Positions 55,076 to 56,985 of a DNA stretch of 64,000 nucleotides are shown one piece after another. The stretch spans positions 223,001 through 287,000 of the forward strand of contig PMSM01000011.1 of the NCBI GenBank assembly GCA_003168335.1, read 5' to 3'. The notes under the pieces are model-generated. The model did no database searches, was not told the origin of the DNA, and saw nothing but the letters and a program-made list of their open reading frames with translations. Each line of letters begins with the position of its first letter. Positions within the stretch are counted from its first letter, which is position 1. The position numbers were made by a program, and so were the translations under genes. The stretch comes from Blastocatellia bacterium (GTDB taxonomy: Bacteria > Acidobacteriota > Blastocatellia > Pyrinomonadales > Pyrinomonadaceae).

Positions 55076-55645
55076 ATGACCTGGATTAAGACCATACCCA
55101 TCTCTGAAGGTGACGAGAAGCTGCGTTGCGCCGTTGAAGCGCAGCGTGAATTGTATCCGGCAGAGTATGCAGTGCCGATTCATCCCACAGCCGATGGCCA
55201 GGCGTCGCATATCGTCGCTTCGCACAGCCTGATCCCAGAGGCGCTTCATCACGCGTTTGCCACCTTCGGCGTATTGATGTCGCCTGACCTTCCGCTCACC
55301 AGACGACAACACGAAATGATCACCACCGTCGTTTCCGTTACTAATCGCTGCCACTATTGAATCGAATCCCACGCAGAGTTTCTGCGTCGAGTTACCCTGG
55401 ATGACGAGTTGGTGAGAGCGCTGCAGGAGGATTACCGGACCGCGCCGATTTCTGAGCAGGACAGAGTAATGCTCGATTACGTTGCCCAACTGACTCGCGA
55501 TGCCACGCGCATTTCTGCGCGGGATCATGAGCGGCTGCGAGCCACAGGATTTGATGACCAGGCCATCCTGCAGATCACGCTGATCGCGTCGTGGTTTAAT
55601 TACATCAATCGCGTGGCCGACGCGTTAGGCGTGGGAAGAGATTAA
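55076..55645 (+). CDS. Candidate selenoprotein: AhpD-like/carboxymuconolactone-decarboxylase-family peroxidase-related protein, Sec (TGA 55358-55360) at the second Cys of CxxC
   Basis: In-frame continuation across TGA: ...[19 protein letters not shown][U][22 protein letters not shown]...; fits AhpD motif E-x11-C-x2-[C/U]-x3-H exactly. Confidence 0.75.
55371..55387 (+). promoter_or_regulatory. Candidate bSECIS hairpin for the AhpD-like gene
   Basis: ACGCAGA-GTT-TCTGCGT, 7-bp perfect stem, G first in apical loop, 17 nt between TGA and loop. Confidence 0.65.
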
Positions 55646-55722
55646 GGGCCTTCGTCCGCCGGGTGTGACCAGAGCACGACGGGTTGGTCACTTTTCAGCG
55701 TCCCATTCTCCCACTGCGCGCG

Positions 55723-56985
55723 CTACCTCTCGCCGAGAGTGTAGACGGTGGTCTTCGGATTGTAGGTCTTCCAGTCAAACCAATAGTCCTTGAGCACCGC
55801 AATCTTCGTCAACTGTTTGCCCGTAAGCGTCCCGTTTAAGGCAGTGCCGGTAAAGTCCCATTCCGTGCCTTTATCGTCAATCAGTCGTAGCGGTGCCGAG
55901 TTCGGTTTGAGGAAGAACTCACGCTCATGGCCTTCGACAGTTCGATCGAAAGCGCGAATCGACTTGCCGTCCTCGCCCAGCACGATCACGAGCGGCGTGC
56001 CCGCTAACTTATCGATTATGGGATTCTGTTTTTGCAGGGCCGCAACTGGATAAGCCCCGGATGCATTATTAACGGTTATTCCGACTACAAGTTCGCGCTG
56101 ATCCAGAGTCGGCGCGCTCACCTGTGTGGCCACCGGAACGCGCGACATCCGATCTTCCCAATCAGGCGGTGCGTACTCTCCTTTCGCGGCGATCTTTTCA
56201 TCCGGGCTGAGTACGCGGCCTTGCGGCTGTTCGCTTTTCCACGTGGCAAAAGTGAGTTCGTCCATGAAGGCAGGCTTGAGACTCTTACCCTTCAGCGGAC
56301 CAAAGATCGCCTCGCCCGTCACTTGTTGCCACCACGAACCAGTCTCTTCATCCTTCATAATGAAATTCTGATTGTTAATTCCGGCGAGATGAAAATGAAG
56401 TACCCGCCCCTCAACTGTCGTTTCCCACACCAGACCGGTGTGACAGAGCGTTCAATAAGTCGCACAGATCGGCGTCCCACCCACCACGTCAGAGACGACG
56501 TGATGATAGGCCATCAGCCGCACTGGATATGCCACGGCTTCATTATTGATCTTGACCGCCAGCACCATGTCGGAATCCCGGACAAAACTGGCGTCCTTTG
56601 CCTTGACGTAAGCGCTGTTGCGCAGGGGATTGAACATCCACTCGAAATGATTCTGGCGCGCAAACCACGCCGGGACGAAGGTCAATAGAAGGAGGACGAC
56701 GAGGAGCGTCTTGCGCCACCAGCGACGGGCCCGCGCCCATTGCCGGACCACGAGCGCAAACGCCGCAACCAACATGATGACGGTGGCCAGGGGAGACCAA
56801 TCTCGCAGCACGTAGGAGATCTCGAGTGCCCGTTGCGTCTGCGGGCGAAAAGGCTGGATTAGAAACACCGGAACGATTACCAACGTTAGGGACAGCAGGA
56901 GCAGGAGCGGGAGCAGCAACCAGATCATCCGACGCCCGATGCGACCGGCAGTGCCCGACCTGGTTTCAGCTAAGATGTCGTCCAT
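55723..56985 (-). CDS. Candidate selenoprotein: membrane-anchored DUF3179 protein, Sec (TGA, complement 56452-56454) at the first Cys of CxxC
   Basis: In-frame continuation across TGA: ...VVGGTPICATY[U]TLCHTGLVWETTVEGRVLHFHLAGINNQNFIMKDEETGSWWQQ...; ORFs 56985-56452 and 56430-55723 are in the same frame. Confidence 0.75.
56426..56442 (-). promoter_or_regulatory. Candidate bSECIS hairpin for the DUF3179 gene
   Basis: CACACC-GGUCU-GGUGUG (extendable by a U-G pair), 15 nt between TGA and loop; loop GGUCU resembles the AGGUCU loop of E. coli fdhF. Confidence 0.6.

Follow-up and report, generated by a model that had tools for sequence, protein, structure and literature searches.

AhpD-like selenoproteins with a CxxU motif and DUF3179 selenoproteins with a UxxC/T motif both appear on published lists of prokaryotic selenoproteins (PMC9312934, PMC13188914), and NCBI already uses the protein name "DUF3179 domain-containing (seleno)protein". 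The second paper also describes operons of selenoprotein genes, namely Prx/SELENOW-like, Prx-like/AhpD-like, SAO and Tso (PMC13188914). For AhpD itself, the proton relay consists of Glu118, Cys130, Cys133 and His137 (PMC3141380).

Our analysis concerns a window of 64,000 nt from a Blastocatellia bacterium (Acidobacteriota), in which an AhpD-like gene and a DUF3179 gene, each with an in-frame TGA, converge with 77 bp between their stop codons. The known selenoproteins (PMC9312934, PMC13188914) do not differ in kind from these: the AhpD-like protein is of the same family (COG2128/TIGR01926) and has the same CxxU arrangement with selenocysteine (Sec) in second position, and the DUF3179 protein has the same domain (PF11376) and the same UxxC. 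What sets the window genes apart is that the AhpD-like gene lies beside DUF3179 and represents a group of acidobacterial orthologues that share a near-invariant SECIS hairpin of their own, and that the DUF3179 protein is a predicted membrane-anchored 420-aa form whose TGA is near-invariant in Acidobacteriota. The chromosomal grouping of selenoprotein genes resembles the operons of PMC13188914, but operon genes are co-directional and co-transcribed, whereas the window pair is convergent, tandem orders occur only in some relatives, and the grouping varies between lineages. The literature passages found on DUF3179 do not describe its pairing with AhpD. The new element is only the recurrent pairing of the two families in soil Acidobacteriota; both selenoprotein families were already known.

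Two genes with a single in-frame TGA

The AhpD-like gene (55076..55645, plus strand) encodes 189 aa, ends with TAA and contains a single TGA (55358..55360) at codon 95, in a CHYU motif (context RCHYU-IESH). Its Pfam and NCBIfam matches, to the CMD domain (PF02627) and to the peroxidase-related family TIGR01926, span the TGA, and the latter scores 114.4 bits, above the curated cut-off of 81.8. On the opposite strand, the DUF3179 gene (55723..56985, minus strand; 420 aa, stop TAG) likewise has a single TGA (56452..56454), at codon 178 in a UTLC motif (context TYU-TLCHTG). The PF11376 match runs across it with 212.1 bits (gathering cut-off 27), covering profile positions 8–292 of 292; no NCBIfam model matches this protein. 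The original prediction of convergent genes on opposite strands, each with one TGA at a redox cysteine, is thereby confirmed with exact coordinates.

Solved relatives of the AhpD-like protein (2pfx, 3c1l, 2oyo, 6k40 and 2prr) belong to the peroxidase-related group. Residues E80, C92, U95 and H99 are invariant in its alignment, and their spacing equals that of the Glu, Cys, Cys, His relay of M. tuberculosis AhpD and P. aeruginosa PA0269 (PMC3141380). By motif spacing, Sec95 is the counterpart of Cys133 in M. tuberculosis AhpD, so that Sec would replace the second cysteine of these proteins, and Cys92, Glu80 and His99 would occupy the proton-relay positions. The sequence lacks the strongly hydrophobic segment that a signal or anchor typically has. 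The protein is probably a cytoplasmic redox enzyme of the AhpD fold with Sec95 as second catalytic cysteine, and its substrate is most likely a hydroperoxide or a comparable electrophile, reduced via a Sec-Cys selenenylsulfide cycle; we infer its catalysis, substrates and electron donors from family knowledge.

Two relatives show variants of this gene. In G002 (locus L082, 4679–5172) it is short by ~26 codons near its end and changes frame, with TGA and hairpin intact; the lesion represents either decay or an assembly error. In the 96%-identical relative L188 the stop (2849–2851) is TGA and not TAA, so that TGA would have two roles in one mRNA, Sec codon and terminator.

The DUF3179 protein has three predicted N-terminal transmembrane helices followed by a duplicated beta domain, and its AlphaFold2 model is confident (pLDDT 87). 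The loop between hydrophobic helices 2 and 3 is positively charged, which by the positive-inside rule would place the domain outside the cytoplasm; thus, it looks periplasmic. The two halves of the internal duplication share 28% identity, and the residues conserved in the alignment, UxxCH and an upstream HH pair, are kept only in the first half. Searched against solved structures, the DUF3179 profile gave no match. The best of the weak fold matches to solved structures aligned part of the model with the Rieske ferredoxins 3gce and 5cxm (E 0.05–0.13). Rieske [2Fe-2S] ligands form a CxH...CxxH pattern; the residues conserved in DUF3179 are UxxCH and HH, and we treat the likeness of the model as a lead only. 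The protein would be anchored by its three helices, with the periplasmic UxxC probably acting as a selenol/thiol redox centre. No fusion of DUF3179 with a CMD domain was present among the best 120 proteins. Short C-terminal DUF3179 matches (33–69 residues) without the remainder of the gene were seen in four relatives (G014:C31, G036:C280, G056:C37 and G098:C13) and are perhaps remnants of gene loss.

Decoding of the internal TGA codons

Because an Rfam scan of the window returned no selenium-related element, only Acido-Lenti-1, candidate hairpins were tested by comparison. A hairpin at the right spacing had been predicted for each gene, and both were found. In the AhpD-like mRNA, a SECIS-type hairpin (55371..55387, plus strand) with the 7-bp stem ACGCAGA/UCUGCGU and the loop GUU follows 10 nt after the TGA; in the DUF3179 mRNA, the corresponding element (56425..56443, minus strand) has the 7-bp stem UCACACC/GGUGUGG and the loop GGUCU and follows after 8 nt. 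Both apical loops start with G. For the AhpD hairpin, an alignment of 41 sequences shows the seven pairs intact in 97.6% of cells; in 13 sequences one pair is changed on both sides, a result that none of 500 shuffles reaches. For the DUF3179 hairpin (39 sequences), 96.7% of cells are paired and two pairs show changes on both sides; with few changed pairs in this set, its covariation score is not above that of the shuffles. Pairing in slid-window controls ranged from 24 to 63%. Moreover, synonymous codon identity over the nine codons after the TGA rises to 0.93 in AhpD (0.58 elsewhere) and to 0.87 in DUF3179 (0.61 elsewhere), a peak that is reached nowhere else in the two genes (0/131 and 0/103 other stretches, respectively). 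Homologues with Cys have no such hairpin.

Under the standard code each gene carries a premature stop, as pseudogenes with nonsense mutations would. However, the same TGA recurs across dozens of species down to ~40% identity, with conserved coding sequence behind it, and some distant homologues have Cys at this position. Every aligned row keeps the TGA (29/29 for DUF3179, 27/27 for AhpD), and a count over DUF3179 loci found it in 43 of 47 from named genomes and in 79 of 80 from metagenomes. Together with the hairpins, these observations make a pair of pseudogenes extremely improbable. The earlier argument that random decay is unlikely to have hit exactly these codons also gains from the remainder of the window, where 20 other TGA-bearing frames were scanned with Pfam as candidates for additional selenoproteins and none showed a convincing domain continuing past the TGA. 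An assembly or sequencing artefact has an equally negligible probability: although the source assembly comprises 14 contigs at an estimated completeness of 96.6%, the independent metagenome contig L188, 96–97% identical, carries both TGAs and the gene order PFK-DUF3179-AhpD-GH31, which rules out the artefact named in the original prediction as a possible objection, and L192 and L101 likewise hold the convergent pair.

A suppressor tRNA that inserts another amino acid at UGA, e.g., Cys or Trp, would keep the frames open as well, and no evidence for one was found. More ORFs of the window end in TGA than in any other stop (20 of 43 control ORFs), and the phosphofructokinase (PFK) gene next to DUF3179 (57152..58276, minus strand) ends in a TGA used as stop, so that the genome is not recoded as a whole, in agreement with the original reading. 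The in-frame TGA sites, in contrast, coincide with conserved hairpins, and Sec genes are present in the genome, so that we give decoding by a suppressor tRNA only a very small probability. The Acido-Lenti-1 RNA itself (RF01687; 59174-59219, minus strand; 45.4 bits, gathering score 37) lies ~0.9 kb beyond the PFK gene.

The source genome encodes selA, selB, selD and a tRNA-Sec with UCA anticodon (selC). Its selD (L018, G000:C7:140467-144396) has an in-frame TGA of its own (SGUAAK) and is itself probably a selenoprotein. selA scored above the cut-off in 135 of 148 relatives. The outcome that the original prediction named as refuting it, the TGA pair in genomes lacking Sec machinery, was not seen: in eight of the 148 relatives neither selA nor selB scores above cut-off, and none of the eight carries a TGA form, one of them (G147) having a Cys AhpD. 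In a phylum-wide sample, all ten Cys-DUF3179 genomes of one family were without selA above cut-off, and the 19 TGA genomes tested, which include two from the same family, all have selA. In ~10 genomes with TGA forms selA was found and selB was not above cut-off; these are mostly fragmented, incomplete MAGs, and the undetected selB agrees with assembly incompleteness.

Both in-frame TGAs are almost certainly Sec codons. At the internal UGA, the ribosome would insert Sec from tRNA-Sec(UCA), delivered by SelB reading the downstream hairpin, and the terminal stops of both genes would end translation normally.

Arrangement of the locus in relatives

The upstream neighbour of the AhpD-like gene is a GH31 glycosidase gene (52540..55008, plus strand), in relatives as well as in the window, and PFK is a conserved neighbour of DUF3179, divergent in relatives and on the same strand here. 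In G034 and G051, which belong to other genera of the family, the divergent PFK-DUF3179 pair and the co-directional GH31-AhpD pair lie at opposite ends of one 40–46 kb region, in which many genes are homologous to those at 28–58 kb of the window. In G001 and G003, from the same genus, the AhpD-like and DUF3179 genes are on different contigs. These distant or separate placements indicate an older syntenic block, inside which the immediate adjacency is local and derived. Thus, when the convergent pair was sought in other Acidobacteriota, it was recovered in G002, L101, L192 and L188, but in most relatives with both genes the two are not adjacent, and the idea of a fixed convergent pair or selenoprotein island is not supported.

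A run of plus-strand genes at 38230–50605 of the window encodes a 185-aa protein that no Pfam model matches, a carbon-nitrogen hydrolase, a multihaem cytochrome-TPR protein, a cytochrome c and three FG-GAP/UnbV-ASPIC proteins, one of them with TPR. Several of these genes have homologues that adjoin DUF3179 in relatives; of 126 loci, 17 have the 185-aa protein downstream of DUF3179. Within this bacterial family, the AhpD-like and DUF3179 genes are part of a single conserved neighbourhood on the chromosome and would have become immediate neighbours through local rearrangement. We hold with high confidence, on the evidence of the sequences, that both genes encode true selenoproteins, the AhpD-like one probably cytoplasmic and the DUF3179 one predicted to be periplasmic, whose redox roles may be related and whose adjacency arose by local rearrangement.

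A possible functional link between the two families

Of 40 relatives with Sec-DUF3179, 34 also have a Sec-AhpD orthologue; among the other Sec-capable genomes the figure is 27 of 100 (P 3e-10, with phylogeny not taken into account). The two genes lie less than 1 kb apart in four genomes, against an expectation of 0.014 under uniform placement, with P values that again ignore phylogeny. Across loci the arrangement varies: DUF3179 precedes AhpD in tandem in L115 and L138 and follows it in L118, L211 and L251, the genes are divergent in L128 and L263, and convergent in L101 and L192. Cys versions are included, as the Cys-DUF3179 locus L147 has several Cys AhpD-like genes, and in L085 and L086 Cys-DUF3179 paralogues lie beside Sec-AhpD paralogues. 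Co-occurrence and juxtaposition in such varied arrangements make it plausible that the two families are functionally linked.

There is, in our view, an even chance that the two selenoproteins are functionally independent, and that their adjacency is a by-product of rearrangement in the syntenic block and of a shared dependence on the Sec machinery. The flanking positions in G034 and G051 and the separate contigs of G001 and G003 fit such independence, and the co-occurrence may partly reflect lineage. FG-GAP/UnbV proteins (large families), the 185-aa protein and PFK are all commoner neighbours of DUF3179 than AhpD is (with the 43 other window proteins as control). PFK and the 185-aa protein always occur in one order next to DUF3179, as inheritance predicts. 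At three DUF3179 loci on plasmids from outside the phylum (Deinococcus, Thiothrix and Haloferax), AhpD is not a neighbour. On the other hand, the co-occurrence persists within Sec-capable genomes, and at separate loci, among them those with Cys forms, the genes come within 2 kb of each other, whether convergent, divergent or in either tandem order. A functional link and mere co-location thus appear about equally likely.

The original prediction of a functional peroxide/thiol pair survives in part: it is plausible from co-occurrence and repeated juxtaposition, but the predicted opposite cell locations, periplasmic for DUF3179 and cytoplasmic for AhpD, argue against a simple complex and make a direct pair less simple. 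The two proteins may serve related redox roles, for which mutual contact would not be required. Only tentatively, and with somewhat less confidence than we give to independence, do we propose a two-protein redox module with Sec and Cys versions, made up of a periplasmic membrane-anchored and a cytoplasmic partner, whose genes were brought next to each other on several occasions within Acidobacteriota.

Standard gene calling cuts both genes at the TGA, so that they readily escape notice in soil Acidobacteriota, in which the Sec trait seems to be common, judging by the selA count among the relatives. For DUF3179, a family with no known function, the recurrent link to AhpD-like proteins and the exchange of Sec and Cys in step with the Sec machinery provide a testable redox role.
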